Shown here piece after piece: positions 1,807-25,368 of a DNA stretch of 44,091 nt. This DNA is from Chloroflexota bacterium. Lineage in GTDB: Bacteria; Chloroflexota; Anaerolineae; Promineifilales; Promineifilaceae. The translations under genes and the position numbers were made by a program. The stretch spans positions 1-44,091 of the forward strand of contig JAGNBF010000065.1 in NCBI GenBank assembly GCA_018004935.1. Reading direction: 5' to 3'. Positions within the stretch are counted from its first letter, which is position 1, and each line of letters begins with the position of its first letter. A model generated the notes under the pieces. It ran no database searches, was not told where the DNA came from, and saw nothing but the letters and a program-made list of their open reading frames with translations.

Positions 1807-2620
1807 AGTCGAGTTGTTTAATGAAGGGCTTAAACCACTGCCTGTGGCAGTGGAATAGGTAAAGGTTCTATCGTTGTAGTGAGTATTACAGGAGAATCGT
1901 GATCTCAATACCATCCGAGTTATGTTGTAGTTCCAATTCACAGCGCACCTGAAAGGGAGACTGGCTTTGCGATTCTTCGACAAATGGGGCCAACTGAGTA
2001 AAACGATACTGGGGACAACATCTGTGGTCGAGAGGTGACGCTGTCAGCAGAGTCGAATTGGATGAAGAACGCAGCAGAAAGTACGTCAAGTGACAGAACA
2101 AGCAAGATGAAGATACTGAAGCCACGCAAGATGACTTGTTTGACTAACTGAATAGCGTCGCATCTTCTAGGTGCAATCATCCAAGCCACCACCAGAGGGG
2201 GTGGTGGTCATTGACTCTCATTCCTAAGCGTAACTAATAACTTTCTACCTCGGAACTATGGGCGACCAAACAATGAACTTGGAGTGATAAATGTCATGGG
2301 AGAACCAGACATTTGTCATCTCACCGGCTTAGACGTCTTTTTAGCTCCTTTTGCCCCGCCTTCTTTGCGCCAGCGCAAAGACACCCCCCTCGTTCTCTGC
2401 GACACTAGCCATAGATTAGCTATTTACCTCTTATCTCATTGTGGAAGAGGAGCGTATGACCGGGTGGCATCGCTTTTTTTACAGGAGTTCCCCAGGAGTG
2501 GGGTGCTCACCAAGAGGAATGAAAATTTTTAACCACAGATTTCACCGATTTACACAGATTTTTTCTTAATCCGTGCCATCCGTGTTAATCCGTGTACCCA
2601 TTTTCTCAGGAGAAAAACCC
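1807..2620. other. Non-coding gap upstream of nosZ
   Basis: No convincing gene was found. Short open frames here lack good start contexts and have unlikely composition. The stretch holds a CCACCACC/GGTGGTGG hairpin at about 2191-2211, a CTTTGCG/CGCAAAG hairpin near 2363-2380, and at 2532-2597 an ACAGATT/AATCCGTG-type nomadic intergenic repeat immediately before the nosZ leader. The nosZ promoter must lie in this gap, but I could not choose a -35/-10 pair with confidence. Confidence 0.5.
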
Positions 2621-4627: not shown

Positions 4628-4725
4628 GAGTGCTGAGTACTGAGTACTGAGTGCTGAGTGCTGAGTGCTGAGTGCTGAGATGGGTTTTACTCAGCACTCA
4701 GTACTGTCCACTCAGCACTTCCCAG
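4628..4725 (+). repeat. Intercistronic heptad repeat with inverted half
   Basis: Seven or eight units of GAGTGCT/GAGTACT (period 7) at about 4628-4680 are followed by the inverse words (ACTCAGC, ACTCAGT) at 4690-4722. A transcript would fold into a long hairpin between nosZ and the next cistron. The words differ from those in other gaps of the same operon. Confidence 0.8.
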
Positions 4726-4733
4726 AGGCCCCC

Positions 4734-5396
4734 ATGAACCCTCTCGCTACCGATGTCAAAGTTGTATTGCCCGATGGCAGTACGCGGCCGCTAATGACCT
4801 ACTTACTGCCCAGTGCCACCCTGATGCTGGCCGCCTTCTTGTTGATGCTGTCTATGTTCCTGCCTTACTGGAGCATGACCCTGTTTGCACCGCAATACCC
4901 CAAGGGGCTGAAGGTGGATGTGTTTGTCAACCAATTAGTGGGCGATGTACAGGAGATAGATGCGCTCAACCATTATCTGGGTATGCCGCCGCTGGACGAA
5001 GGCGGTCAGTTAGAACGTCAAATTTCGATGATTGGCATTGTGGTGTTGGGTTTCCTGCTCATTGCCGGGGTGTTTGTCCATAACAAGTGGGCGGCCGCGT
5101 TAGCCATTCCCGCCCTCACCTTCCCGTTCGTTTTCCTGGCTGACCTGTACTGGATTTTGTACCGCTACGGCCACAGCATTGATCCCAAATCGGCCCTGGG
5201 CGGGGCGATTGAGCCGTTTACACCCACGTTATTGGGTGAAGGGGCCATTGCCCAATTCCGCACCATCTCCCAGTTGGAACTGGGTTTCTGGCTGGCGCTT
5301 GCTTCCCTGCTCGTGGTGCTGATTGGCCTGTGGTTCCACCGAGCGGCGTATAAGCCGGTGGCGGAAGCCCGACAAAAGGTGGTAGCCAGTTTGTAG
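4734..5396 (+). CDS. NosB-like integral membrane protein of the nos cluster
   Basis: This 220-residue protein starts at ATG 4734, just after the heptad repeat; an upstream in-frame ATG would read the repeat as protein and is rejected. Four hydrophobic segments are visible: about residues 23-45 (LLPSATLMLAAFLLML), 97-118, 123-144 and 186-207. A soluble loop between the first two contains PQYPKGL and VNQLVGDVQEIDALNHY. Clade II nos clusters usually carry a polytopic protein, NosB, directly after nosZ, so the position supports that name; the sequence match is from memory only. Its exact role in maturation or electron delivery is not established. It is co-directional with nosZ and should be co-transcribed. 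Confidence 0.6.
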   Translation: MNPLATDVKVVLPDGSTRPLMTYLLPSATLMLAAFLLMLSMFLPYWSMTLFAPQYPKGLKVDVFVNQLVGDVQEIDALNHYLGMPPLDEGGQLERQISMIGIVVLGFLLIAGVFVHNKWAAALAIPALTFPFVFLADLYWILYRYGHSIDPKSALGGAIEPFTPTLLGEGAIAQFRTISQLELGFWLALASLLVVLIGLWFHRAAYKPVAEARQKVVASL

Positions 5397-5428
5397 TTTC
5401 GAGTTTTGAGTTTCGAGTTTTGAGTTGC
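5395..5428 (+). repeat. Heptad repeat AGTTTCG/AGTTTTG
   Basis: Four period-7 units alternating AGTTTCG and AGTTTTG fill most of the short gap between the NosB-like gene and nosDF. The same words recur at 38024-38063. Confidence 0.75.
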
Positions 5429-5436
5429 TTCTCACT

Positions 5437-7719
5437 ATGAAACGTATCATCTCATCCCTGTTCATCTTGTTGCTGGTCCTGATTGCGCCGAACGCGGCCG
5501 CGACCCCCACTCAGCCCTCAGCACTCAGCCCTCAGCACCTCATCGTCTCTCCGTCTGGCCCGTACACCACTCTGGTGGCGGCTCTGGCAGACGCTGAGGC
5601 TGGCGACACGATTGAGGTGCGAGGGGGCGTGCATCCGGCGCCACTGCTGGTGGATAAGGCAGTGACGTTGGTAGGGGTGGATTGGCCGGTGATTGACGGT
5701 GGGGGGTTGGGATCAGTGGTCACGCTCGCGGCCGCGGACATCATCTTTCGCGGTTTCATGGTGCGGGGCAGTGGCAACGAACCAGACCGCAACCATGCTG
5801 GCATCGCCGTGGTAGCCCCTAACGTCCTGGTGGAAAACAACCAGCTCGACGATGTGCTGTTTGGCATTTACGTGGCTGAAGGGGCAGGCACCATCCTGCG
5901 CGGCAACGACATCACCGGCAAAAGCCAGTACGACCTGGGACGCAAAGGGGACGGCGTCCGCATCTGGTACAGCCCCAATGTACTTATCGAACAAAATACC
6001 ATTCACGATACCCGCGACCTGGTGCTCTGGTATTCGCCAGGGGTCATCATTCACGACAACGAAATCCGTAACGGTCGTTATGGCGTTCACCTCATGTACA
6101 CCGACAACATCACCATCAGCAACAATCGTCTCCTAGACAACTCGGTGGGCATTTTTACCATGTATTCCCACCAGGTCGTTATCCAGGACAACCTGATTCG
6201 GGGGCATCGAGGGCCAAGCGGGTACGCGCTTGGGTTCAAAGATGCCGATGACGTGCATGTGTCGGGAAATGTTCTAGTAGACAACAGCGGCGGCATTTTT
6301 CTGGATGGCACGCCATTCAATCCCCAGGCCGTGAGCGAGTTCACCCATAATATCGTGGCCTTTAATGATGTGGCTGTCACCCTGCAACCAGCCGCTAAGG
6401 GCAATCTTTTTGCCCACAACACCTTTTGGGAAAACCTGGCCCAGATGACCCTACAGGGTGGTGGCACACCGGGCATCAACACCTGGCAAAACAACACCTG
6501 GAGCGATTACACCGGTTTCGATGCCGATGGTGATGCGGTGGGGGATGTGCCCTATCGCTCCGACCGCTTTTTTGAAAATTTGATGGATGAAGAAGCCCGG
6601 TTGCGGGTTCTGCTCTACAGCCCGGCGGTAGAAGCCATCGAAATGGCGGCCCGCTCCTTCCCGCTCATCCGCCCACAACCCAAATTTGTAGACGAAACGC
6701 CGCAGATGACCGCGGCCGCGATTCCCCCCTTTGCCCAATTACCCACCCAACCCACCGGGAAAATAGTCGGCGCGGCCGCGTTATTTCTCACCCTGGCTCT
6801 GGTAGGCACACACCTGGGCCGCCCTGAGGTAGCTATGAAGAAGCAGGAAGCGAGTCAGCCATCAACACCTAGTAGTCTCTCAATCTCTCAATCTCTCAGT
6901 CTCCCCTCTCCGGTCTCCAGTCTACAGTCTCCAGTCTCCATCACGAACCTCAGCAAACATTACAACTCCATCCCCGCCTTGCGTGCGGTCAGTTTTGCCG
7001 CACATACCGGCGAAGCCATCGCCTTGTGGGGTGAAAATGGGGCGGGCAAAAGCACCCTATTCAAAGCCATTTTGGGGCTGATTGAGTACCAGGGTGACAT
7101 TCGGGTGCAGGGCCAGGATGGGCGCAAAGCCGGTAAAGCGGCGCGCCGGGCCATTGGTTATGTACCTCAGGAAGTCCTTTTGTCCGATTGGCATGTGGAA
7201 GCCACATTGCACTTCTTTTGTCGCCTCAAAAAAGCAGACGCCAACCGGATTCCCGGCCTGTTACAAAAACTAGGCTTAACCGAACACGCCCAAAAATCCG
7301 TCCCGGCTCTCTCTGGGGGGTTGCGGCAACGGCTGGCCCTGGCACTGGCCCTGCTGGCCGATCCGCCCGTGCTGTTGTTAGACGAACCCACCGCCAATCT
7401 GGACACCCAGGCCCGCTGGGATTATCTGGCTCTGTTAGCCGAGTTACGAGCCGAGGGCAAAACCATTTTGTTCGCCTCGCACCGATTGGAAGAGGTGGAA
7501 GCCCTGGCCGACCGGGTGTTGCTGCTCCAGCAAGGGGAAATGATTGGGTTGATACCTGTGGATGAGTTGCGGCCGCGTATCCAGACGGAAATTCCGGGGG
7601 AGTTGCAGAGTCGCAAAGTGGCAGGGTTGCAGAGTGGTAATGGCGTGGCGAAACATAGTGTATGGCAACCCACGTTTGTGGCTCAACCATTAGAGACAGA
7701 AATGGTTAATAGCCAATAG
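5437..7719 (+). CDS. nosDF: NosD-NosF fusion: periplasmic copper-maturation beta-helix plus ABC ATPase
   Basis: One open frame of 760 residues joins two normally separate maturation proteins. Residues 1-22 are a signal peptide; about 35-400 form a parallel beta-helix with repeated N-x-I, G-I-x-V turns as in NosD. A hydrophobic segment at about 443-461 (VGAAALFLTLALVG) could return the chain to the cytoplasm, followed by a low-complexity Ser/Pro linker. The ABC ATPase begins near 503, with Walker A at 532-540 (GENGAGKST), LSGG at 625-628, Walker B ending in Asp649-Glu650, and the H-loop SHRLEE. NosD exports or matures sulfur/copper for CuZ together with NosF and NosY. The linker (DNA 6871-6941) is translated repeat. 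An in-frame ATG at 6835 has GAGG five bases upstream, so a separate NosF could also be made. Confidence 0.88.
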   Translation: MKRIISSLFILLLVLIAPNAAATPTQPSALSPQHLIVSPSGPYTTLVAALADAEAGDTIEVRGGVHPAPLLVDKAVTLVGVDWPVIDGGGLGSVVTLAAADIIFRGFMVRGSGNEPDRNHAGIAVVAPNVLVENNQLDDVLFGIYVAEGAGTILRGNDITGKSQYDLGRKGDGVRIWYSPNVLIEQNTIHDTRDLVLWYSPGVIIHDNEIRNGRYGVHLMYTDNITISNNRLLDNSVGIFTMYSHQVVIQDNLIRGHRGPSGYALGFKDADDVHVSGNVLVDNSGGIFLDGTPFNPQAVSEFTHNIVAFNDVAVTLQPAAKGNLFAHNTFWENLAQMTLQGGGTPGINTWQNNTWSDYTGFDADGDAVGDVPYRSDRFFENLMDEEARLRVLLYSPAVEAIEMAARSFPLIRPQPKFVDETPQMTAAAIPPFAQLPTQPTGKIVGAAALFLTLALVGTHLGRPEVAMKKQEASQPSTPSSLSISQSLSLPSPVSSLQSPVSITNLSKHYNSIPALRAVSFAAHTGEAIALWGENGAGKSTLFKAILGLIEYQGDIRVQGQDGRKAGKAARRAIGYVPQEVLLSDWHVEATLHFFCRLKKADANRIPGLLQKLGLTEHAQKSVPALSGGLRQRLALALALLADPPVLLLDEPTANLDTQARWDYLALLAELRAEGKTILFASHRLEEVEALADRVLLLQQGEMIGLIPVDELRPRIQTEIPGELQSRKVAGLQSGNGVAKHSVWQPTFVAQPLETEMVNSQ
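5508..5546 (+). repeat. Translated heptad repeat at the mature N-terminus of NosD
   Basis: Words CTCAGCC and CTCAGCA alternate with period 7 just after the signal peptide codons, encoding TQPSALSPQH. The tract resembles the intercistronic repeats yet lies inside the reading frame. Confidence 0.65.
6835..6837 (+). promoter_or_regulatory. Possible internal translation start for NosF
   Basis: ATG codon 467 of the fusion frame is preceded by GAGG at 6826-6829. It would release a free ABC subunit of about 294 residues, or be the relic of the original nosF start. Confidence 0.4.
6871..6941 (+). repeat. Translated CTCTCAAT / GTCTCCA repeat forming the NosD-NosF linker
   Basis: Units of 8 bases (TCTCAATC) and then of 7 bases (GTCTCCA, GTCTACA) encode the Ser/Leu/Pro-rich linker. 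It is of the same kind as the untranslated repeats between the other nos cistrons. Confidence 0.7.
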
Positions 7720-7885
7720 TCAGGGGAGTCGAATAATTAATTGGTGAATCGTTGAGCTATTGAATTGTTAATGAAGTGGCGGCCCATGCTCCCTCGTTAA
7801 TTATTCACCCATTCACAAATTCACGGATTAATTATTCTCTGCCCTTATTACTTCATTCGCGTCTGACTCATTACACGAGGCAATT
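7720..7885 (+). repeat. Intercistronic long inverted repeat before nosY
   Basis: The words at about 7728-7746 and 7828-7846 are inverted copies of each other with two mismatches (AATAATTAATTGGTGAAT type). They can form a long AT-rich hairpin between nosDF and nosY. Confidence 0.6.
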
Positions 7886-8713
7886 ATGGAACTCACACTC
7901 ATCTGGGTGATCGCCCAACGAGAATTACGGGAAGCATTGAAGAATAAGTGGCTTTGGCTGTATGCGCTGGGGTTTGCCGGATTGGCCCTGGCCTTGTCAC
8001 GAGCCGGGCTGGCCTCGGCGGGGTATGCCGGACTGGGCGGTTTTGGCCGAACCGCCGCCAGCCTGGTTAATGCGCTCTTACTCTTCGTACCCCTCATCGG
8101 CCTGAGCGTAGGGGCCAGTTCGATAGCCGGGGAGCGGGAACGGGGCACCCTGCTTTATTTGCTCAGCCAGCCCATCAACCGGGCGGAGTTATTCGCCGGT
8201 AAGGCGGTGGGGGCCAGTCTGGCGGTGATAACAGCACTGGCTTTGGGGTTTGGCTTGGCCGGTCTAGGGCTGGCAAGTTCTGGCGGGGGCGCAGCCGCGA
8301 TCTACCTCTCGTTGGGTGGATACACCTTTTTACTGGCCCTGGCTGCTCTGGGTTTAGGTTTCCTCATCAGTTCTGGGGCCAAAAAAGGCGCAACGGCCAG
8401 CGCGGCCGCGTTGTTGGTCTGGTTACTCCTAACCTTCCTGGGCGATCTGGGTTTCATTGGCCTGACCTTGAGCCTGCGCCCCACCCCAGCCGTTCTATTT
8501 GGCACCCTGCTCATCAACCCCCTGCAAATTTTCAAACTCGGGGCTATCAACAGCTTACAAGCCGGGCTAGATGTACTGGGGCCTGTGGGCCAATACGCCA
8601 CCTACCGCTTTGGCGACACATTGCCCTTGCTCCTGGTCGGTCTGCTCGTCGCCTGGATCGGGCTGAGTTTTGGCCTGGCTTTTGGACTGTTCCAGAGGCG
8701 GGGGGATTTGTAA
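7886..8713 (+). CDS. nosY: NosY ABC transporter permease
   Basis: This 275-residue polytopic membrane protein has hydrophobic segments near residues 22-45, 55-80, 105-130, 138-162, 170-195 and 245-268. ABC-2 features are visible, including the GERERGTLLYLLSQPINRAELFAGK-type region after the second segment, where the conserved ERE..G.L..LLS.P signature of NosY/ABC-2 permeases lies. ATG 7886 is preceded by ACGAGG at suitable distance. It should pair with the NosF ATPase domain to move a sulfur-containing substrate needed for CuZ assembly by NosD; that role is family knowledge. The gene is flanked by repeat-filled gaps on both sides. Confidence 0.9.
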   Translation: MELTLIWVIAQRELREALKNKWLWLYALGFAGLALALSRAGLASAGYAGLGGFGRTAASLVNALLLFVPLIGLSVGASSIAGERERGTLLYLLSQPINRAELFAGKAVGASLAVITALALGFGLAGLGLASSGGGAAAIYLSLGGYTFLLALAALGLGFLISSGAKKGATASAAALLVWLLLTFLGDLGFIGLTLSLRPTPAVLFGTLLINPLQIFKLGAINSLQAGLDVLGPVGQYATYRFGDTLPLLLVGLLVAWIGLSFGLAFGLFQRRGDL

Positions 8714-8776
8714 GGGAGGAGACTGAGAGACTAGGAGATTGAGAGATTAACCAGTCTCTCAGTCTCTCTGAGGTAC
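8714..8776 (+). repeat. Intercistronic GAGAGACT repeat with inverted half
   Basis: Period-7 words (AGACTGA, GAGACTA, GGAGATT) are followed by their inverse (CAGTCTCTCAGTCTCTC), giving a potential hairpin between nosY and nosL. It ends four bases before the nosL start. Confidence 0.7.
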
Positions 8777-8780
8777 TGCT

Positions 8781-9227
8781 ATGAAACGAACGATCTGGTT
8801 ATTGTTACTTTTCCTCATCGGCTGTCATGCCGGTGGCCCGACGGATGAGGCGCCGGAGATTGCCTATGGGCGGGATGTTTGTGACGCCTGTAACATGATC
8901 ATTGATGAGGCCCGCTTTGCCGCCTCGTATGTGACCACCACCGGTGAGGTACGGAAATTCGAGAGCATTGAAGATATGGTCAGTTATCACCACGACCACG
9001 AGGAAGCGGTGCATATCTTCTGGGTGCACGACTATGAATCAGAAGCTTGGGTGCGGGCGGACAAGGCCTTTTTTATCCAGAGTGAGGATATTCAATCGCC
9101 GATGGGGGGTGGGCTGTTCGCGGCCGCGGACGAAACTCACGCCCACCGCCTGGCCGATGTCTGGCACGGCTCTGTCCTCACCTTCACCGAGTTAATGGCT
9201 GGGGATGTAGCCCTACATAGCCACTAA
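8781..9227 (+). CDS. nosL: NosL copper chaperone lipoprotein
   Basis: The 148-residue product has a short lipoprotein signal ending LIGC (Cys15). The NosL copper motif CDACNM is at residues 34-39, followed by the family features DEARFAASYVT, KFESIEDM and a His-rich stretch SYHHDHEEAVH. NosL binds Cu(I) and delivers it to apo-NosZ on the outer side of the membrane. Context after nosY fits the standard cluster. The start at ATG 8781 is the first Met before the signal sequence and follows the repeat tract with AGGTACTGCT upstream. The C-terminus ends in ALHSH, a further possible metal-binding tail. Confidence 0.93.
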   Translation: MKRTIWLLLLFLIGCHAGGPTDEAPEIAYGRDVCDACNMIIDEARFAASYVTTTGEVRKFESIEDMVSYHHDHEEAVHIFWVHDYESEAWVRADKAFFIQSEDIQSPMGGGLFAAADETHAHRLADVWHGSVLTFTELMAGDVALHSH

Positions 9228-16496: not shown

Positions 16497-17162
16497 ATGA
16501 ACACTCATCAACGGCACCAAAATAAAGAGCAGATTTATGCCCTGATCGCTCAAATCATGGCCGCCATTGCTAACCCCAAGCGGCTAGAACTGCTAGACCT
16601 CCTAGTGCAGGCGCCCCGTAATGTCGAAGAACTAGCCTCAGAAACAGGCATGAGCATCGCTAATACCTCCCAACATTTGCAAAAACTCAAACACGCCCGG
16701 ATGGTACTGACCCAACGACACGGAACGTATATTCGTTATCGTCTGGCCGACCCATCTATTGCCCATCTCTGGTTACAACTACGGACTGTCGCCGAAAAAC
16801 AGATGGTTGAAGTCGTGCGTGCCATTGATGCTTACCGTGATCAACGTTATGAGTTTGCGGGGATAACGGCAAACGAATTAATGGCGCGTCTCGAAACCGG
16901 TGATGTTATCTTACTAGATGCCCGGCCCACAGCTGAGTATGAAGCCGCTCATCTACCGGGGGCCGTTTCTATACCCTGGAATGAGATAGCCCACCGTCAG
17001 CAGGAGTTACCCAAAGATAAGCTCATTGTCGCTTATTGCCGGGGGCCGTATTGTGTTTATGCGGATGATGCTTTGGCAGTGTTGGCGGATGCCGGGTGGC
17101 AGGTGGCTCGCTTAGAAGAAGGGGTTCTTGAATGGCAAATGGCAGGATATGCGCTGAACTGA
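16497..17162 (+). CDS. ArsR-family repressor fused to a rhodanese domain
   Basis: Residues about 10-95 are an ArsR winged helix (IANPKRLELLDLLVQAPRNVEELA, then SIANTSQHLQKLKHARMVL as recognition helix). Residues about 120-221 are a rhodanese (VILLDARPTAEYEAAHLPGA, active-site loop CRGPYC, then GVLEWQMAG). The rhodanese loop has two Cys (C-R-G-P-Y-C), one being the sulfur-accepting Cys. Such fusions are known as persulfide or sulfane-sulfur sensing repressors of sulfur-oxidation genes. Downstream on the same strand are the DsrE-like and rhodanese-MBL genes, the likely targets. The upstream palindrome at 16453 supports autoregulation. The region is free of GCGGCCGC sites, unlike most of the window. 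Confidence 0.9.
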   Translation: MNTHQRHQNKEQIYALIAQIMAAIANPKRLELLDLLVQAPRNVEELASETGMSIANTSQHLQKLKHARMVLTQRHGTYIRYRLADPSIAHLWLQLRTVAEKQMVEVVRAIDAYRDQRYEFAGITANELMARLETGDVILLDARPTAEYEAAHLPGAVSIPWNEIAHRQQELPKDKLIVAYCRGPYCVYADDALAVLADAGWQVARLEEGVLEWQMAGYALN

Positions 17163-17237
17163 TGCCTGTGTTAATCAGAAAACACGCGTCAAAAATTGCC
17201 CGCTCATCGTGTAACAATCCACTACAGGAGAGTAAAA

Positions 17238-17603
17238 ATGATAGATAGTCATCCACGAAACATACTTTTTGTAATCAATGATGGCCCTTATGGGAATGAA
17301 CGGGCTTATAGTGCGCTTCGTCTGGCATTGAATCTCGTTAAACGACCAGAGGCAACAGTGCGTGTTTTTCTTACTGGTGATGGGGTGCAGTGTGCTCGTA
17401 AGGGGCAAAAAACGCCGGATGGTTATTACAATGTCGAGCGGATGGTTAAATCCCTGGCTCGACGAGGTGAAGTCGCCACTTGAGGCTCTTGCAGTGAGGC
17501 TCGCGGGATCGAGCCTGAATACATGATTGAAGATGTACTGGCGGGGAATATGGACTTGCTGGGTGACTGGACATTGGCGGCTGACCAGGTCATTGTCTTC
17601 TAA
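17238..17603 (+). CDS. DsrE-family sulfur-transfer protein with probable selenocysteine at UGA codon 82
   Basis: The start is ATG 17238 with AGGAG seven bases before it. The frame reaches a TGA at 17481-17483 and then continues for 39 sense codons to TAA at 17601. Residues on both sides fit DsrE: NILFVINDGPYGNERAYSALRLA, VFLTGDGVQCA, and after the TGA GSCSEARG, then MIEDVLAGNMDLL and LAADQVIVF. In the family the position of the TGA is normally Cys in a C-G-x-C-x-x-A-R-G motif, so the product would have U-G-S-C. Thirteen bases after the UGA begins a 7-bp hairpin (17497-17516) with a CGGGAU loop, as for a bacterial SECIS. A nonsense mutation is the alternative; without recoding only 81 residues would be made. 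It lies between ArsR-rhodanese and rhodanese-MBL genes. Confidence 0.75.
17484..17516 (+). promoter_or_regulatory. Putative bacterial SECIS element
   Basis: AGGCTCG (17497-17503) pairs with CGAGCCT (17510-17516) around the six-base loop CGGGAT, whose second base is G. The spacing of 13 bases from the UGA to the stem is close to that in known bacterial selenoprotein mRNAs. Confidence 0.6.
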
Positions 17604-17665
17604 CGTGGCAACCCTAGAACTATAGGCTTTGGCTAAATAGTTATTTACTGGGGAGAAAATGTACA

Positions 17666-18775
17666 ATGGCAAAACAAACGATTGATGTGAACACGCTGCT
17701 AACAATGCTGACTATGGGAGAGCCAGTTACAGTTTTGGATGTCCGCCATACTGAAGATTATCAGGAGTGGACCATTCCCGGTAGCACTCATATAGACGTG
17801 TACGATGCCTTAAAAACCCACGATCCACAAGCCCTTGGGGCGGTTCATTTGCAGCCTGACAAACTGATTATCACCGTTTGCGGCGCTGGTGTGGTTAGTC
17901 TGGAGGCCGCCAGGCAACTCCGCCAACGAGGGTACGAGGCACTTTCGCTTGTGGGAGGCATGAAAGCGTGGAGTCTAGCATGGAACAGCGCAACTGTGCC
18001 TACCGGCAATCCGGAAACCCACATCATTCAGATCCAGCGCACGGGCAAGGGGTGTCTTTCTTATCTGATTGGCTCTAGCGGGCAGGCTGCCGTGATTGAT
18101 GCCGCACTTGATCCAGGGATTTATCTTGAACTTGCTCAACAGAAGGGGTGGCAAATTACGCATGTGCTAGACACACATATTCACGCTGACCACCTCTCGC
18201 GTAGCCGGCGTCTGGCTAAGGTCAGCGGGGCCGCACTTTATTTGCCTGCACAGGGACGGCTGTCATATCCATTTACGACCCTACACCACCAGGACGTCTT
18301 GCAAGTTGGCTCAATCAAACTCACTGTTATTCATACCCCAGGGCATACAACAGAAAGTGTGTGCTACTACATCAATGATGAAGCACTGCTAACAGGGGAT
18401 ACGTTGTTCTTAGCCGCGGTTGGTCGTCCCGATTTGAAAGCAGATATGAATGAGACCCACCGTCGGGCATGTATGCTTTTTAGCTCGTTGCAGCAATTGT
18501 TGACTTTGCCGCCGCAAACGATCATCTTGCCTGGCCATACCAGTCATCCCGTGGCCTTTGATAGACAAGCCATCAGCGCATCTTTGGCACAGGTACAACG
18601 AGAAACGGCCGTGCTGTCACTCCCTGAAACTGAATTCATAGATACATTACTGCAACATCTGCCAGGTACACCGCCGAACCATCTCCGTATCGTGGCCCTA
18701 AATGAGGCAGGTGAACTGCCCGAAGGGGATGTCACGGACTTAGAAGCGGGAGCCAATCGCTGTGCCGTAGGTTAA
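17666..18775 (+). CDS. Rhodanese-metallo-beta-lactamase fusion (persulfide dioxygenase-like)
   Basis: Residues 1-110 are a rhodanese domain (VTVLDVRHTEDYQEWTIPGS, active-site VCGAGVVS with the single Cys, then GGMKAW). Residues about 120-330 are a metallo-beta-lactamase hydrolase with THIHADH, HTPGHT, GDTLF, VGRPDL and LPGHT motifs, the ETHE1/glyoxalase-II-like set. ETHE1-type enzymes oxidise glutathione persulfide to sulfite, and rhodanese fusions transfer sulfane sulfur first. GGGGAG ten bases before ATG 17666 sets the start. An extra region of about 50 residues after the MBL core is unassigned. It follows the DsrE candidate by 62 bp and likely belongs to one sulfane-sulfur operon with it. 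Confidence 0.88.
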   Translation: MAKQTIDVNTLLTMLTMGEPVTVLDVRHTEDYQEWTIPGSTHIDVYDALKTHDPQALGAVHLQPDKLIITVCGAGVVSLEAARQLRQRGYEALSLVGGMKAWSLAWNSATVPTGNPETHIIQIQRTGKGCLSYLIGSSGQAAVIDAALDPGIYLELAQQKGWQITHVLDTHIHADHLSRSRRLAKVSGAALYLPAQGRLSYPFTTLHHQDVLQVGSIKLTVIHTPGHTTESVCYYINDEALLTGDTLFLAAVGRPDLKADMNETHRRACMLFSSLQQLLTLPPQTIILPGHTSHPVAFDRQAISASLAQVQRETAVLSLPETEFIDTLLQHLPGTPPNHLRIVALNEAGELPEGDVTDLEAGANRCAVG

Positions 18776-18794: not shown

Positions 18795-20042
18795 ATGAAC
18801 CATCAATCAATCACGCTTGGGCTAAGAGAAAATTGGCACCAGTTCACGCTTCTTGTCATCGTCAATGCTTTTGTAGGCGCAATGATTGGGTTGGAGCGCA
18901 CTATCCTGCCGCTGCTCGCCGAAGCAGATTTCGGCCTGATTTCCAAAACGGTCGTCCTTTCCTTTCTCATTAGCTTTGGCCTGGTGAAGGCATTGGCGAA
19001 CTTATTTGCCGGGCGGTTGGGGGATCGATATGGTCGCAAGCCTATTCTTATTCTTGGCTGGCTTATTGGTTTGCCGGTTCCGCTTATCATTATCTTGGCC
19101 CCGAGTTGGGGCTGGGTCGTTTTTGCCAATGTCTTGCTCGGAATTAATCAGGGGTTTTGTTGGTCTACGACGGTCATCATGAAGATTGATCTGGTGGGAC
19201 CAAAACAACGTGGGCTGGCCATGGGGTTGAATGAGTTTGCGGGTTATCTGGCGGTATCACTATCGGCATTGATGACCGGTTTTCTCGCGGCCGCGCACGG
19301 ATTTCGTCCCATCCCTTTTATCCCTGGCCTTCTCTTTGCCGCGTTGGGTCTGCTCTTTTCCCTCTTTTTCGTGCAAGAAACACGCGCTCATGTCCACCAT
19401 GAAGCAAGTCTGGTTCGGTTAGGTGGACATGATGATAGGGATCATCCCTCTTTCTCTACGATATTCATGCGTACCAGTTGGCAGGATAAAACGCTTTTTG
19501 CCGTTTGCCAGGCGGGGCTTGTGAACAACCTGAACGATGGCATGGTGTGGGGGCTGGTGCCGCTTTTGCTGGCTGGGTTTGGGGTGTCAGTGGCGCAGGT
19601 GGCATTGGTCGCGGCCGCATACCCGGCAGTATGGGGGTTGGGTCAACTATTCACCGGGGCACTCAGCGATCGCTGGGGACGTAAATGGCTCATTGCTACA
19701 GGCATGGGATTACAGGCTGTCGGCATTAGCTTTTTCGTGATGGGACGAACGATGACGGGTTGGTTAACCGCCGCTATTTTATTGGGGGTGGGTACGGCCA
19801 TGGTTTATCCCACATTGTTGGCGGCTATTTCTGATGTTGCCCACCCCACCTGGCGGGGTTCGGCCGTGGGTGTTTATCGCCTCTGGCGTGACTTGGGGTT
19901 TGCCATTGGCGGCATATTGGCTGGGTTGTTAGCTGATCTATTTAACATTCCAGTTGCTATTGCTGTGATTGGGGGTCTGACCCTGGTTTCAGGCATTGTC
20001 GTTGGGGTCGTCATGCGCGAAACACATTCGGCATACCGCTAG
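18795..20042 (+). CDS. MFS transporter
   Basis: The 415-residue protein has twelve hydrophobic segments in two six-helix halves. The cytoplasmic loop 2-3 motif is GRLGDRYGRKPIL near residue 70, and the mirrored motif in the second half is GALSDRWGRKWLI near residue 290. Both are the classic MFS motif A. The central loop is His-rich (ETRAHVHHEASLVRLGGHDDRDH), hinting at metal contact. The start is ATG 18795, 19 bp after the preceding stop, with only a weak ribosome site. The substrate is unknown; the neighbours make a sulfur compound or a drug/anion export role possible. Two GCGGCCGC sites lie in its second half, so the signature resumes here. Confidence 0.9.
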   Translation: MNHQSITLGLRENWHQFTLLVIVNAFVGAMIGLERTILPLLAEADFGLISKTVVLSFLISFGLVKALANLFAGRLGDRYGRKPILILGWLIGLPVPLIIILAPSWGWVVFANVLLGINQGFCWSTTVIMKIDLVGPKQRGLAMGLNEFAGYLAVSLSALMTGFLAAAHGFRPIPFIPGLLFAALGLLFSLFFVQETRAHVHHEASLVRLGGHDDRDHPSFSTIFMRTSWQDKTLFAVCQAGLVNNLNDGMVWGLVPLLLAGFGVSVAQVALVAAAYPAVWGLGQLFTGALSDRWGRKWLIATGMGLQAVGISFFVMGRTMTGWLTAAILLGVGTAMVYPTLLAAISDVAHPTWRGSAVGVYRLWRDLGFAIGGILAGLLADLFNIPVAIAVIGGLTLVSGIVVGVVMRETHSAYR

Positions 20043-20156
20043 CCAGTAGAAATACTCAAGGGCTTTTGATGTTTAGGGATCATGTGTCCGCAGCCTTGAA
20101 AAAACAACTTTATTTATCCCTAGAATGGGTGTAACTTATTGCCGCTCGTTCCGCAC

Positions 20157-21482
20157 TCAGCCATTACCCATCTGTTGCCACAACACAAACTGCCGCTTGC
20201 GCGTTCGCTGCTGTTGCCAGTACACATCGGACTCCTGTCCGCGGCCGCGACCGCGGCCTCGCCCGGCCTCTTTGCCATTGGGGTAATACCGTTTCTCCGG
20301 GTGCGTATCAGCCCTTTCCTCAACGTTCCCCGGCATCCCTTGCATAACCAGGTCTTTGAGTTCACGATTGATCCGCTTCTGCCGACCCTTTGGCCGGTGC
20401 TGGTGTTGCCCCAGATAACTATTGGGCAACTGCCAGGCCAGATAGGTTTCGCCCTTCCTGCCTTGTTGGCCACGATAATCTGTCAATTCAAATACCGCCT
20501 GACCCTGTACCCAGGCCCGATTCTCTCGATTCTCCTCTGTGGCGACTTCACCCACGGCAAAGTTCGCCTGCACCTTCAGCTTTGTTTGTTTCTCGTAAGC
20601 CCGCTGGCTGGATGCCCCCACCCCACTCAACCCGGCCAGGGTCACACGGGCAATAGGCATGGCCTGGCGGCCGCGGACTGATTCTTTGCTGCGGCCGCTG
20701 TGAAAGGCGGTGTACAGGTGGGCACGAAACGCACCAATGCCTGCCAACAAAGCGGTCACCGACAAGCCCACCGGTTGCCCGGTGAGCCGCTCCACCCCTA
20801 AAGCAAAAGCTACTTTGGCCACAGACTTCAGCCATATCTGCTCCCGGTCGCGGATCCAAAACACGCCATCCCCTTCGCGGAGCAGGTTGCGCCATTGTCG
20901 TTGGCCACATAACCGCAGCGGTGAAGATTCTTTTACCAGCAGTTCCTTGGCTCTTTCAATGGGAATGCTTCCCTGTCCTTCCTTATCTATGGCCCGCAAC
21001 ATGAGCCACAATCGCCCTGGCGCGGTCATCTCTCGGCGTAACATGCCGAGGCCGATATCCGGGTAGAGTTTGACCCAATCTCCGGATGCTAAGGTGTTTA
21101 GCAAATCGTTCGCATAGAGACTAACAACTTCTCTCTCACCCTGTCCCTCTAAATCATGATCATTGGTCTGGTCCGCGGCCGCGCCTTCCCCACTATTCCC
21201 CTCACGCCCACTCTCCCCAGCCACTGGTTTTGACTTCTGCTGTCCTCGACGGCGTAACAAGGCCGTCATGGGTGCACTGCCCCAGCCGAGATGATCAGGC
21301 AGAGTGGCAATGATCGCGGCCGCGGACTCCGGTTGCATTCGTGAGCGCACTTCGCCGAGAGATGAATGCTCCCCCTGCCACCCTTCTGCCTGCCGGGCAG
21401 ATCGCGCCTGGGCCTGTTGCTTCTGAAGTCGTCGGTTCGCCTCTATGAGAGCCAAGGAAGGCGCGGCAGTGGAAGCAGCCAT
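20157..21482 (-). CDS. Unrecognised 441-aa protein at the distal end of the secretion module
   Basis: I do not recognise a family. The N-terminal 130 residues are Gln/Ala/Arg-rich and likely disordered. Residues about 135-300 look folded and helical: SLYANDLLNTLASGDWVKLYPDIGLGML, RLWLMLRAIDKEG and IPIERAKELLV, followed by RQWRNLLREGDGVFWIRDREQIWLKSVAKVAFALG. This may be a winged-helix-like DNA-binding layout, as in some plasmid replication or regulatory proteins. The C-terminal 140 residues are basic, with NRELKDLV and a GRGRGRGRG tract partly coded by GCGGCCGC. No ribosome site precedes ATG 21482. The first small RNA promoter begins 53 bp upstream in the opposite direction, so the two share a control region. 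Confidence 0.6.
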   Translation of the reverse strand: MAASTAAPSLALIEANRRLQKQQAQARSARQAEGWQGEHSSLGEVRSRMQPESAAAIIATLPDHLGWGSAPMTALLRRRGQQKSKPVAGESGREGNSGEGAAADQTNDHDLEGQGEREVVSLYANDLLNTLASGDWVKLYPDIGLGMLRREMTAPGRLWLMLRAIDKEGQGSIPIERAKELLVKESSPLRLCGQRQWRNLLREGDGVFWIRDREQIWLKSVAKVAFALGVERLTGQPVGLSVTALLAGIGAFRAHLYTAFHSGRSKESVRGRQAMPIARVTLAGLSGVGASSQRAYEKQTKLKVQANFAVGEVATEENRENRAWVQGQAVFELTDYRGQQGRKGETYLAWQLPNSYLGQHQHRPKGRQKRINRELKDLVMQGMPGNVEERADTHPEKRYYPNGKEAGRGRGRGRGQESDVYWQQQRTRKRQFVLWQQMGNG

Positions 21483-21534
21483 TTAGTAAGCGCAGGTTTT
21501 TTTAGTGGTTAATGGCTATGCGAATGCAATTCCA

Positions 21535-21563
21535 TTGACACACAAATACGCCTGTGCTATCCT
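21535..21563 (+). promoter_or_regulatory. Promoter of small RNA 1
   Basis: TTGACA at 21535-21540, a 17-base spacer, and TATCCT at 21558-21563. The spacer ends in TGTGC, conserved in copies 1 and 2 and nearly so in copy 3. Confidence 0.85.
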
Positions 21564-21569
21564 CCTAAC

Positions 21570-21726
21570 AGGTTGACCGCATAGGGGAAACACACAAAAT
21601 CCCCCTCCCCAATAAAGGGGCCTCAAAAAAGCTTGGGTTGTCGCGCAACCAAACTTTTACGCTATGCGGTTAGTGAAAGAAATAATCTGACAAAAGAAGC
21701 CAGTGTTGACGCACAGGCTTTTTTGT
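21570..21726 (+). ncRNA. Small RNA 1 of a four-copy tandem family
   Basis: About 155 nt. The closing stem is UUGACCGCAUAG (21573-21584) with CUAUGCGGUUAG (21662-21673). Inside are hairpin P2 CCCC-AAUAAA-GGGG (21607-21620) and hairpin P3 GGUUG-UCGCG-CAACC (21636-21650). The terminator hairpin AAGCCAGUG-UUGACG-CACAGGCUU (21697-21720) is followed by TTTT. The conserved string around P2, CCCCUCCCCAAUAAAGGGGC, is shared with the other copies. Confidence 0.8.
21697..21724 (+). terminator. Terminator of small RNA 1
   Basis: A nine-pair stem with one A-A mismatch, loop TTGACG, ending in a run of six T including the last stem bases. Confidence 0.85.
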
Positions 21727-21749
21727 TTTCTGGGGCCGGAGCTACCAGA

Positions 21750-21781
21750 TCGTGGCCAGCAAGCCACCCTGCTCACCACGA
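21750..21781 (+). repeat. Hairpin downstream of small RNA 1
   Basis: TCGTGG..AGCA and TGCT..CCACGA pair around AGCCACCC. Equivalent hairpins follow copies 2 and 3. Confidence 0.5.
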
Positions 21782-22037
21782 GCTGACATCCCCTTCACCC
21801 TACAAGCATTCCTCAGTTCTTCATCCTTACACTCCGGATATGGGTCATGGACTGACATTCATCGTTATCCACTCTTGTTCTGAATCATCACCGCGAATGG
21901 CCGCTTATCTTGTGCACCCTCTACTACCCTAATCAGCCACATAGCAGGCCTTTCCTTGCCCACATATCCTCTGCCAGTGCCCTATTCTTGTATCTTTAGC
22001 CGTTGTCTGATCGCCTGTTTTCACTCTTGTGATCTCT

Positions 22038-22066
22038 TTGACACGGGAAGACCCCTGTGCTATTCT
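22038..22066 (+). promoter_or_regulatory. Promoter of small RNA 2
   Basis: TTGACA at 22038-22043, a 17-base spacer ending TGTGC, and TATTCT at 22061-22066. Confidence 0.85.
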
Positions 22067-22072
22067 CCTAAA

Positions 22073-22234
22073 CACATCAGGCTGCATTGAAGGTAAATAA
22101 ATACACCTTCCCCCTCCCCAATGAAGGGGCTTCAAAAAAGTTTAAGGCGGTGAGAGCCTAAAACCTTAGAAGTATGTGGCTAAACAAATCTATTACTGAC
22201 AAAAGAAGCCCGTGTTGACGCACTGGCTTTTTTG
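22073..22234 (+). ncRNA. Small RNA 2 of the tandem family
   Basis: The closing stem is CUGCAU (22082-22087) with AUGUGG (in 22174-22179), using two G-U pairs, extended by AG/CU past a bulge. P2 is CCCC-AAUGAA-GGGG (22116-22129). P3 is AGGC-GGUGAGA-GCCU (22145-22159). The terminator is AAGCCCGUG-UUGACG-CACUGGCUU then T-run (22206-22233). Confidence 0.78.
22206..22233 (+). terminator. Terminator of small RNA 2
   Basis: Stem AAGCC.GTG/CAC.GGCTT, loop TTGACG and six T. The loop is identical to that of copy 1. Confidence 0.85.
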
Positions 22235-22256
22235 TTTTCTGGGAGACTGAGCCACC

Positions 22257-22294
22257 AGCCAGTAGCGAGCAAGTCATCCTGCTCGCTACTGGCT
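22257..22294 (+). repeat. Perfect 15-bp hairpin downstream of small RNA 2
   Basis: AGCCAGTAGCGAGCA and its exact inverse enclose the loop AGTCATCC. No T-run follows. Confidence 0.6.
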
Positions 22295-22627
22295 GATTTC
22301 CCCGGTCCTTCACACCCTCAAGATCATCATCACCTCGCTATTCACCTGGTTTTTGGCCAAGCCTCTGTTCCCTCTGTAACCAGCTGATCTGATTTCCTTG
22401 CTTGCCAAACCATCTCCTGTACCACATCAAAACATACATTAACCACTCTTCCCCTCACCGCAGGCCGCATCCCTATCGAATTTCCCAAACGCGTTACTAC
22501 ACTTGCCGCCGCTACATGCCCTTTAAGGGTTATGTCCGTTTTGTAGGTGCGAGACGGCACTAGAAAAGAGCAATTACCGTTGTCAGCCAGCTACCCATTT
22601 GCCGCATACCCCTCTATTAGCAATTAG

Positions 22628-22656
22628 TTGACATAGGAATCGCCCCGTGCTATTCT
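22628..22656 (+). promoter_or_regulatory. Promoter of small RNA 3
   Basis: TTGACA at 22628-22633, a 17-base spacer ending CGTGC, and TATTCT at 22651-22656. Confidence 0.85.
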
Positions 22657-22662
22657 CTCAAT

Positions 22663-22828
22663 GAATCAGACTCATATGGGGATCAAACACAAATACCCCT
22701 TCCCCAATAAAGGGGCTTCACAATAAGGTTCAGGTGTTAGCGCACCAAAAACCTTCTGAGAGATGGGTCTGACCAACTGAACTACTTCTTAAGCGAAGAA
22801 AGCCCGTGTTAGCGCACTGGCTTTTTTG
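22663..22828 (+). ncRNA. Small RNA 3 of the tandem family
   Basis: The closing stem is UCAGACUCAU (22666-22675) with AUGGGUCUGA (22763-22772), ten pairs with one G-U. P2 is CCCC-AAUAAA-GGGG (22702-22715). P3 is GGUG-UUAGCG-CACC (22733-22746). The terminator is AAGCCCGUG-UUAGCG-CACUGGCUU plus T-run (22800-22827). The P3 and terminator loops are identical. Confidence 0.8.
22800..22827 (+). terminator. Terminator of small RNA 3
   Basis: The same stem type as copy 2 with loop TTAGCG and six T. Confidence 0.85.
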
Positions 22829-22852
22829 CTTTCTGGGAGACTGAGCCACCAG

Positions 22853-22889
22853 CCAATGGTGAGCAAGTTACTTTGCTCCTCATTAGTTG
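22853..22889 (+). repeat. Hairpin downstream of small RNA 3
   Basis: AATGGTGAGCA and TGCTCCTCATT pair with one mismatch around AGTTACTT, matching the position and loop pattern of the hairpins after copies 1 and 2. Confidence 0.5.
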
Positions 22890-23024
22890 ATCTCCCAATT
22901 CCCTTCCGTTGTTAAAACATCATTTTCTTCCCCCTTCACGCCTGGTTCAATGGTTGCAGTTACGTCCAATCAACCGCCTGATATTCATACCTGCCCGCCG
23001 TTCTTTTGCCTTTCCGATCTGTTT

Positions 23025-23053
23025 TTGACATTCCTCGTCATCAATGTTATTCT
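23025..23053 (+). promoter_or_regulatory. Promoter of small RNA 4
   Basis: TTGACA at 23025-23030, a 17-base spacer of unrelated sequence, and TATTCT at 23048-23053. Only the promoter boxes and spacing match the other copies. Confidence 0.8.
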
Positions 23054-23059
23054 TATGAC

Positions 23060-23206
23060 TAACAAAAACTGCTCTGGGGAATAATCCCCCCTCCCCATAA
23101 AAGGGGCCTCGAACTGATGGTGCTACGAACACCAAAGATTCAGCAGGCAATGCAGTTAATACCGGAATCATCAAAAGCCAGGTACTACGAATACCTGGCT
23201 TTTTCC
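23060..23206 (+). ncRNA. Small RNA 4 of the tandem family (most diverged)
   Basis: The closing stem is AACUGC (23067-23072) with GCAGUU (23152-23157). P2 is CCCC-AUAAAA-GGGG (23093-23106). P3 is GGUG-CUACGAA-CACC (23119-23133). The terminator is AGCCAGGUA with UACCUGGCU around CUACGAA, then U5 (23176-23204). P3 and terminator loops again agree with each other and differ from the other copies. Confidence 0.75.
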
Positions 23207-23740
23207 GTTATTGTCACAGTGGGAAATCCCACCTGTAAACAAACTTTTTGATTGTGGCACAAACTTATTAGAGGCAGGAGAACAAGCCTGACGAAGCAAC
23301 AACCCGTTGCCTGGAAGATCAATATTGAGATGAGGTTTATGACGGGGAGTGTATGAGGTCATCGCCAATCTCCATCGAATCTGATGCTGGCGATGAGGGG
23401 TAATTTGGGCTACTTGACCAATAGATAAGAATTGGTCATAATTATCACCATATCGCCAGCCCCTGCTGTAACTGTGCTCCGTCAAAAGTTCAGTTATCTG
23501 GGGCTTTTTCTTTGCCTGTTGCAAGTTTGCAACAATATTAATGGGATTATACCCAAGCCCCCAATAACTGTAAAGAAACTGAATCGCCCAGATGTTCTTA
23601 CTCCAACTCTGTGGCCCCCAGAGAACCAGACTTTTCACCCCCTTTGCCAGGATTGTTTTGCTCCCCCGTGGCCGCCGGTCATCGTTCTTCTGACTCATTA
23701 TCTTATTGCCCTTGGAATCGCTCGATAGGTTGCGTTTCAT
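23171..23740 (-). CDS. Hypothetical protein, last gene of the secretion operon; 3' end overlaps small RNA 4
   Basis: The 189-residue frame starts at ATG 23740, 6 bp after the preceding stop; a TTG at 23755 overlapping the upstream gene is an alternative. No family is recognised. Residues about 15-60 are basic then hydrophobic (KTILAKGVKSLVLWGPQSW, NIWAIQFLYSYWGLG). FLSIGQVAQITPHRQHQIRWRLAM near residue 105 could be a helix-turn-helix. The final residues SQVFVVPGF are read from the terminator hairpin of small RNA 4, so the C-terminus may be fortuitous or recently changed. There are no GCGGCCGC sites. Coding status is moderately supported by overlap with the upstream gene and length. Confidence 0.5.
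   Translation of the reverse strand: MKRNLSSDSKGNKIMSQKNDDRRPRGSKTILAKGVKSLVLWGPQSWSKNIWAIQFLYSYWGLGYNPINIVANLQQAKKKPQITELLTEHSYSRGWRYGDNYDQFLSIGQVAQITPHRQHQIRWRLAMTSYTPRHKPHLNIDLPGNGLLLRQACSPASNKFVPQSKSLFTGGISHCDNNGKSQVFVVPGF
23176..23204 (+). terminator. Bidirectional terminator of small RNA 4
   Basis: A nine-pair stem with T-runs on both strands. On the minus strand it lies at the very end of the 23740 frame and may stop the secretion operon. Confidence 0.8.
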
Positions 23741-23745
23741 CCCTT

Positions 23746-25368
23746 CTACCCCCAACTAACACTGATAGGTCCAGTGGTTGCCAACACCGCACCGGCACCA
23801 GAGGGAAGAAGCTCTATCACTTCCTGTAGCACCGCCGGAGATGGCTCCTGACCACACCATAACTGAGCTAACAAAGCCCCTATCTGCCCTGTCGGTGTGG
23901 TGGTGAGAACGGTTGTCGCCCCAGGCAGCCGCGGCCCATTGCCGATAAGGAGCGCCGTACCCGGCTCCTGAATATCCTCTGCTTGGATTTTCATACCACT
24001 GACAATCAAACGAGTCTGCCCACTGGCCTGCACCCCTAAGAACATGGCCTTCAGTAACTGTTCCCGCCCCCAATGATCAGCCGGGCAGGCAAAAAGAAGC
24101 GGTTTCGCGCCGAGGGTGGTAAAGAGATTGGTCGGCCATTCCAGCCAATCACGCACTGAGGCCCCTACCAACAGACGACGCAGAGCCGTTTGCAGATTAG
24201 CCAGACCGTTGCCTTCCGCCAGCAGACGGGTGGGCTGTTCCAACCAACGACGTAATTGGTTGATGTCCCTCACCCCTTCGGCGTAAGCCTCGACCAATAG
24301 TGCTCTGGCCTGTCCACCACAACCCATCCCGGCAAACCAGGTCTGCCAACGCTCTACCATCTGCGCTTCTGTTTCGCCTGGCACGGGAGCGAGTGGGTTA
24401 AAACCGGTGCGGCCGCCACTAGCCTCAGTCACGCTGGCCAGGGTAAGCTGTTTGCGGTTGAGTAAATCGGCCACCAGGCCATGCCGTTTCAAGCGCTGGG
24501 TCAAACCCCCGTGTCCGTCCATAATAACCAACCCCTCGGGTTGCAGGGCTAACGCCGCCAGGGTTGCCTGTTCTAACCAGAGCGTTACCGCCTCACGACT
24601 GCCATAGAGGTTCACCTGGGACGTGGGTGACTGTATCATCTGGTTGTCTGGGGCATACCCTAACAGCCAGTGATGACCCTCTTGGCCAGATACCTTCAGT
24701 TCATCGGGAACGGCCGCGGCCGCCAGGTGCGGTCGGGTAGTTAACCCCACAGGTGGAGTAACCGGCAATTGCCAGCTAGTACGAGGTTGACCCGGACGTA
24801 GCCCCGGCCAGAAAAGACCCTGGACCAGTTCTGCCTCATCGAGGTAGGTCAAAAACAGGTGTTCATTCACGAGATAAGCCAGAAAAGGGCGTTGCCAGTC
24901 TACTTTTGTGACAGAGGCTACCCGCCAAGCAGTCAGGCTCTCCGGCGTCTGGGCGGGGTGTAGGCTGGCCTCATAATCACGGACCACCCGTTGAGCCCAC
25001 TCTCCCTCAGCAACGGGAAAACCCAGAACCAGTTGGGGCAAAGGCAGGGGTTGGTAAAACAGGGCCACGCGGCCGCAACCCGTCGCCCCGGCTAAAACGG
25101 CCAACCCTTGCCCTGCCAGTTCGGCAGACCCATAACGCAGACGATACCAGGTCAGGCTCATCAACCACGCCTGGGCCTCGGTCTGACCCTGCCGGTTATC
25201 CTGCCAGATGTGCCAGCGGTCAGTCAGGCGATGGCTGGTCTGCCTATACCAGGCCGATCCTGTCTGCAAAGAGGACCAGAGTCGGTTCGGAATCAGCTTG
25301 CCCCAGGGCCGTGGGGGAGTAGTGGGGGCAGAGGGAAGCTGTTCGGGAAGCTCCTGCATATGGGCCAT
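23746..25368 (-). CDS. VirD4/TraG-like coupling protein homologue with degenerate P-loop
   Basis: The start ATG 25368 has AAGGAG spaced correctly; a longer frame from 25419 overlaps the upstream gene and is rejected. The 540-residue product shows a P-loop-NTPase-like order. QVNLYGSREAVTLWLEQATLAAL stands where the Walker A strand and helix would be, and GLVIMDGHGGLTQRL resembles the viiDpkG strand of coupling proteins. TGFNPLAPVPGETEAQMVERW then matches the N-P-L motif after it. The Gly-rich GKT/S core is absent, so ATP binding is doubtful. The C-terminal part (LIVSGMKIQAEDIQEPGTALLIGNGP and TTVLTTTPTGQ) fits the late strands. No N-terminal TM helices are clear. It follows VirB4 and a 69-aa gene in the operon. 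Assignment as a dead coupling protein is inference. Confidence 0.5.
   Translation of the reverse strand: MAHMQELPEQLPSAPTTPPRPWGKLIPNRLWSSLQTGSAWYRQTSHRLTDRWHIWQDNRQGQTEAQAWLMSLTWYRLRYGSAELAGQGLAVLAGATGCGRVALFYQPLPLPQLVLGFPVAEGEWAQRVVRDYEASLHPAQTPESLTAWRVASVTKVDWQRPFLAYLVNEHLFLTYLDEAELVQGLFWPGLRPGQPRTSWQLPVTPPVGLTTRPHLAAAAVPDELKVSGQEGHHWLLGYAPDNQMIQSPTSQVNLYGSREAVTLWLEQATLAALALQPEGLVIMDGHGGLTQRLKRHGLVADLLNRKQLTLASVTEASGGRTGFNPLAPVPGETEAQMVERWQTWFAGMGCGGQARALLVEAYAEGVRDINQLRRWLEQPTRLLAEGNGLANLQTALRRLLVGASVRDWLEWPTNLFTTLGAKPLLFACPADHWGREQLLKAMFLGVQASGQTRLIVSGMKIQAEDIQEPGTALLIGNGPRLPGATTVLTTTPTGQIGALLAQLWCGQEPSPAVLQEVIELLPSGAGAVLATTGPISVSWG

Follow-up and report, generated by a model that had tools for sequence, protein, structure and literature searches.

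The four tandem units at positions 21535-23206 of the window, the whole 44,091-nucleotide stretch of Chloroflexota DNA that was analysed, belong to a real family of structured RNAs that is absent from Rfam 15. It is moderately probable that they specify countertranscribed RNAs, antisense in cis, which control a plasmid-type replication initiator. Both the antisense pairing and the control of initiation are suggested by the predicted promoter positions and by analogy with plasmid copy-number control, and because an initiator-type neighbour is almost always present across the family, the RNA is probably an antisense brake on initiation and not an unconnected regulator.

Read directly, each of the four units carries a promoter of the form TTGACA-17-TATNCT, a closing stem P1, a CCCC-AAURAA-GGGG hairpin, a further hairpin P3 and a terminator (Table 1). 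This is the architecture that the initial annotation had described, and it is present where that annotation had placed it; the P1 pairing quoted for each copy also forms in all four minimum-energy folds, and the fold z-scores against dinucleotide shuffles are -3.4, -2.8, -3.9 and -4.9 for units 1 to 4, respectively. The set of hairpins was correct for P1, P2 and P3 but incomplete, as an additional hairpin, P2a (GGGG...CCCC, or GAAGGU...ACCUUC in unit 2), had been overlooked 5' of the C-rich hairpin (here P2b) in all four units. With P2a ahead of the C-rich hairpin in each copy, P1 thus closes a junction of three hairpins (P2a, P2b and P3). By reading, the apical loops UUGG or UUAG in P3 and UUGA in the terminators fit the U-turn loops of countertranscribed RNAs, not in every copy, and as far as sequence features go each unit resembles a countertranscript in being a short stem-loop RNA with a consensus promoter and its own terminator. 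Judged by its P1 and terminator sequences, unit 4 is the probable counterpart of the last RNA copy in locus L180.

Table 1. Positions of the RNA units and of the neighbouring features in the window
Feature	Positions	Strand	Description
Initiator-like gene ("LEFT"), 441 aa	20157-21482	-	Divergent from the RNA array; residues 126-362 form the predicted tandem winged-helix core
Putative long 5' leader of the initiator mRNA	21483-23540	-	Deduced from promoter positions; would be antisense to units 1-4 and the second element
RNA unit 1 promoter	21535-21563	+	TTGACA-17-TATCCT, read directly
RNA unit 1	21570-21727	+	P1, P2a, P2b, P3; model match 21576-21670; terminator 21697-21727
RNA unit 2 promoter	22038-22066	+	TTGACA-17-TATTCT, read directly
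RNA unit 2	22073-22236	+	Model match 22081-22180; terminator 22206-22236
RNA unit 3 promoter	22628-22656	+	TTGACA-17-TATTCT, read directly
RNA unit 3	22663-22830	+	Model match 22671-22767; terminator 22800-22830
RNA unit 4 promoter	23025-23053	+	TTGACA-17-TATTCT, read directly
RNA unit 4	23060-23205	+	Model match 23068-23156; terminator 23174-23205
Second small-RNA-like element, unrelated to the units	23414-23511	+	Promoter TTGACC-17-CATAAT (23414-23442) with dyad; hairpin GCCAGCCCC...GGGGCTTTTT
Candidate initiator mRNA promoter	23574-23546	-	TTTACA-17-TATAAT, 11/12 consensus bases; points back through all four units

The claim that no protein is encoded in these 1.7 kb holds for recognisable genes, but a 194-aa open reading frame on the minus strand (23171-23755) overlaps the last bases. 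This frame has no Pfam match and covers conserved promoters, and is therefore probably spurious. No tRNA was found in the window by ARAGORN. Imperfect to near-perfect inverted repeats, of which CAGCCAGTAGCGAGCA...TGCTCGCTACTGGCTG is an example, lie right behind the terminators of units 1 to 3 (21735-21775, 22245-22300 and 22840-22895). A further inverted repeat, TGC-ATTC-GCA with TTCGCATAG on the minus strand, lies at 21513-21535, in the gap that separates the initiator start from the first RNA promoter; variants of it occur in several array-type loci, and from its sequence it is a possible operator. Elsewhere in the window lie a nitrous-oxide-reductase-type cluster (nos propeller, NosD, ABC-2 permease and NosL; 2573-9227) and, at 16497-18775, a likely sulfur-handling operon with an ArsR-rhodanese fusion, a metallo-beta-lactamase-rhodanese protein and an MFS transporter.

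When only unit 1, minus its promoter, is used to build a covariance model, the model recovers the other three units at E values of 4e-9 to 4e-7 (53 kb searched) and also matches one copy in another genus and two of the three further copies in the window's genome, C57 and C112, the third being a diverged one on C108. A model of seven copies (the four window units, C57, C112 and the copy from another genus) detects the RNA in 42 of the 52 genomes of the home bacterial family at E<=1, covering 21 of 22 genera, and the copies are often arranged as tandem pairs or triplets. Among 89 RNA matches, in an alignment that was fitted to the structure, 88% of cells pair compared with 65% after shuffling, changes on both sides are seen in 24 of 28 pairs, and covariation scores 0.46, whereas the values are 0.125+-0.007 when shuffled and <=0.08 when slid. 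RNAalifold applied to an unfitted MAFFT alignment of 20 copies recovered P1, part of P2a, P2b and the top of P3. The promoter lies outside the search models, and an exact TTGACA is present in 77 of the 89 homologues, mostly with a spacer of 17 bases.

The initial annotation took the units for paralogous members of an apparently new structured RNA family in which the changes are compensatory. Strong covariation among homologues bears this out, and neither the covariation analysis nor the search of Rfam 15 for an already described family refuted it: no match at gathering score was found in the window or in 20 homologous loci, and a search of the window to E<=10 returned just unrelated weak matches, mostly to terminators. 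No account of this RNA was found in a literature search. Across the class, the pattern of promoter and C-rich box occurs in 23 of 396 genomes (21 of the home family and two of family f46; none with the reversed control), and an improved model adds one RNA in family f42. Most of the weak class-wide model matches were discarded as chance, being G+C-rich and without promoters.

Of the 74 RNA matches with E<1e-3, 71 divergently adjoin a homologue of the 441-aa gene, mostly 35-150 bp apart, as does the RNA in all 31 loci first examined. Gene and RNA are both missing from nine genomes of the home family; a further genome carries the gene alone, and another shows no more than a very weak RNA match. 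Copies of the initiator gene without detectable RNA exist; of those checked, two have a diverged RNA, several apparently have none, and others are fragments. Genome G025 stands out by the number of its pairs, having 14 initiator matches and about 10 RNA matches, with the initiator-RNA pairs on different contigs and with P1 and P3 diverged. The RNA had been linked to a secretion module, but its conserved partner is the divergent initiator-like gene, and conjugation/secretion-like genes are found beside array-type copies only.

The 441-aa protein has no Pfam (E<=0.001), PHROG or NCBIfam match at a meaningful score, and a homologue has no Pfam family at E<=1. Its core was modelled with AF2 from 73 homologues, at a pLDDT of 94.9. 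Structure comparison (VIA-align) places some forty RepE54 (mini-F) entries on top, with Z up to 8.9 over 168 residues and an rmsd of 4.2, followed by R6K Pi with Z 7.6 over 179 residues; the rows below Pi are unrelated, with a single winged helix and Z of 7.3 and below. RepE is also ranked first by Foldseek, at a modest E of 0.018. The modelled core has a tandem winged-helix fold like that of the plasmid initiators RepE and Pi; Z is moderate and identity to the structural matches is 6-9%, so this is a resemblance of fold and not proof of function. No iterons were found near the array (20000-23800 searched). The motif TGCCTG lies upstream of the initiator start in 16 of 60 loci, against a largest shuffle count of 11.

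Three RNAs in two other bacterial families (L268, which is G156:C689, L270 and L272) are divergent from a different initiator-like protein, which has no whole-protein Pfam match at any of the three loci. A DnaA_N-like C-terminal domain is found in the L268 protein (2e-8) and, slightly under the cutoff, in the L270 protein (2e-5), whereas the L272 protein was assigned as initiator-like via its sequence likeness to the L268 protein. The gene order of L270 is that of home-family single-copy loci, namely initiator, RNA, AAA_22 ATPase and small protein, with a metallo-beta-lactamase-fold gene nearby. The small protein of L270 matches CopG-like RHH_7 at E 0.056, below cutoff, and its L187 counterpart has no RHH match. 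The genes parA/parB adjoin the RNA locus in L268 and L270 and lie near the locus in two home-family genomes.

At single-copy loci, a conserved minus-strand promoter, TTGACA-17-TAGACT, lies 3' of the RNA terminator and is directed back through the RNA into the initiator gene. A minus-strand promoter with at least 10 of 12 consensus bases is found beyond the RNA in 26 of 26 single-copy loci compared with 10% of shuffles, a count that is descriptive and not blind because the loci were selected by the conserved block; between the RNA and the initiator gene, such a promoter is found in none of the 26. Just upstream of the -35 of this minus-strand promoter lies an operator-like palindrome, AATCTATA-N3-TATAGATT, which occurs once per genome, at that site only, and is absent from the window; its occurrence only once per genome led to its rejection as a multi-copy parS-like site. 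Beyond the last RNA and the second element, the window and the array loci related to it share a conserved promoter of the TTTACA/TTTGCA type; the second element is itself conserved in five other array-type loci. The window's copy of this promoter is the best minus-strand promoter in 21380-24400, and its position is kept in the related loci; L270 has TTGACT-17-TATAAT (11/12) at the corresponding place, and the candidate leader promoters of L268 and L272 are weak (9/12). The initiator gene is the only sizeable minus-strand gene ahead of the window's promoter, and we therefore infer a long leader that would be countertranscribed by the RNAs.

Under the antisense model, the divergent 441-aa tandem winged-helix protein would be the initiator and its mRNA would start at the promoter beyond the RNA gene or genes, so that its long leader would be complementary to the RNAs. 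The strong promoters would give rise to RNAs of about 150 nt, whose hairpin loops would initiate pairing with the leader, and the resulting duplex would stop initiator synthesis by premature termination or blocked translation. Replication would then be restrained in proportion to gene dosage, through one RNA at single-copy loci and a tandem array of four in the window. Weighing against the model are the length of the leader in the window (2 kb), the low identity and moderate Z of the structural matches, the lack of iterons near the array, and the weak leader promoters of L268 and L272. Counts of G-U versus A-C are mixed and single out neither strand. An attenuator-type alternative pairing of P1 with the leader was rejected, as cognate pairs are no better than non-cognate or shuffled ones. 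Incompatibility-driven divergence of co-resident copies was likewise set aside, as its significance rests on one genome and is lost when that genome is removed.

The conserved divergent pair, kept in almost all loci, and the RepE/Pi-like fold would also fit an RNA that, made divergently, acts on the initiator protein as a decoy or cofactor, or whose transcription gates an initiator-binding DNA site, for which rctA beside rctB at V. cholerae oriCII is a precedent (PMC3141006). Tandem copies would then increase the dose of sites or decoys, and it is the structure and the promoter, and no obvious target sequence, that are most strongly conserved. However, the array has no conserved repeats or iterons apart from the RNA units, the covariation indicates a folded RNA and not a DNA site, and the 26 single-copy loci have no good minus-strand promoter between the RNA and the gene, and we regard this explanation as fairly unlikely.

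It is improbable that the units encode a trans-acting small RNA whose C-rich box (CCCCYYCCCC) base-pairs with G-rich ribosome-binding sites in other mRNAs. In favour are the almost invariant sequence of the box, the separate promoter and terminator of the RNA, its paralogues, and the existence of known C-rich small RNAs that target Shine-Dalgarno sites; the box, however, is largely paired in P2a/P2b of the predicted folds, and a free regulator need not adjoin one gene family in nearly every case. Initiator leaders are seldom G-rich near the start (11 of 85), which also led to the rejection of the initiator's own ribosome-binding site as the target of the box. A duplex scan over whole leaders was set aside, as loci in which the RNA overlaps the assumed leader dominated its outcome. 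That the RNA is the 5' leader or attenuator of the downstream pair of AAA ATPase and small DNA-binding-like protein is very improbable and was rejected, because the AAA gene, although it follows the RNA on the same strand in 25 of 31 loci, has by reading its own TTGACA promoter 3' of the RNA terminator, and because the genes past the array run the opposite way in array-type loci, the window included.

The window array adjoins a TraG-like P-loop ATPase and an M23 peptidase, and this copy is therefore probably part of an integrated conjugative element or plasmid. For a neighbouring transporter, most of the nearest relatives come from Chloroflexota MAGs of Anaerolineae type. Metabolic genes surround the single-copy form, which is found on long contigs. 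GC skew in two genomes offers a lead, suggesting a role in chromosomal replication: in both of the two home-family contigs tested, cumulative GC skew reaches its minimum about 2 kb away from the locus (870.5 versus 872.6 kb in a 400-kb stretch, and 29.6 versus 27.6 kb on a 259-kb contig), and dnaA lies elsewhere in these genomes. Among all positions, however, the locus is only in the top 4-6% and 16-19% by skew contrast, whole-chromosome skew is weak, a third genome, of another family, has no skew switch, and practically no DnaA boxes were found near the locus. It is quite unlikely, on this evidence, that the home-family single-copy locus (initiator, RNA, palindrome, AAA ATPase, small protein and at times parAB) is a chromosomal origin, or part of one, away from dnaA; were it so, a plasmid-type initiator together with a countertranscribed RNA would govern replication of the chromosome. 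A plasmid-derived chromosome origin in some of these bacteria becomes directly testable.

An RNA family with very strong covariation is tied to unannotated initiator-like proteins in little-studied bacteria. If the antisense model is true, plasmid-style RNA control of initiation extends to loci in chromosome-like contigs, and the window provides a rare example of several countertranscripts arranged in tandem over a single leader.

Among known RNAs, Chloroflexi-1 (RF01698), named in the initial annotation, was likewise described from Chloroflexi, namely Chloroflexus aggregans (PMC2864571), but differs in that its covariance model has no match in the window, even at E<=10. The two-winged-helix core of the 441-aa protein aligns with RepE (mini-F) and Pi (R6K) over its whole length, but the protein differs from them in its 6-9% identity, in having no Pfam match and in its long extra N- and C-terminal parts. 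On chromosome II of V. cholerae, rctB, rctA and parAB2 are adjacent (PMC3141006), so that an initiator, a transcribed non-coding neighbour and par genes stand side by side, as in some of the loci described here. There, rctA adjoins rctB and is transcribed although apparently non-coding, and its transcription relieves rctA inhibition of RctB; it is described as a DNA site whose transcript was judged not to be trans-acting (PMC3141006), whereas in the window family it is RNA structure that is conserved. In pIP501, the antisense RNAIII, of 136 nt, attenuates the repR mRNA, and the repR promoter is preceded by CopR sites (PMC4981023). The RNA described here is of similar size and would likewise converge into a long initiator-mRNA leader, a candidate operator at single-copy loci lies just upstream of the -35 of the putative initiator promoter, as CopR sites do, and the step proposed to be controlled is again initiator synthesis. 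Unlike in pIP501, the initiator is RepE/Pi-like, up to four RNA copies are present per locus, and the system, known here from sequence, also occurs in chromosome-like contigs.
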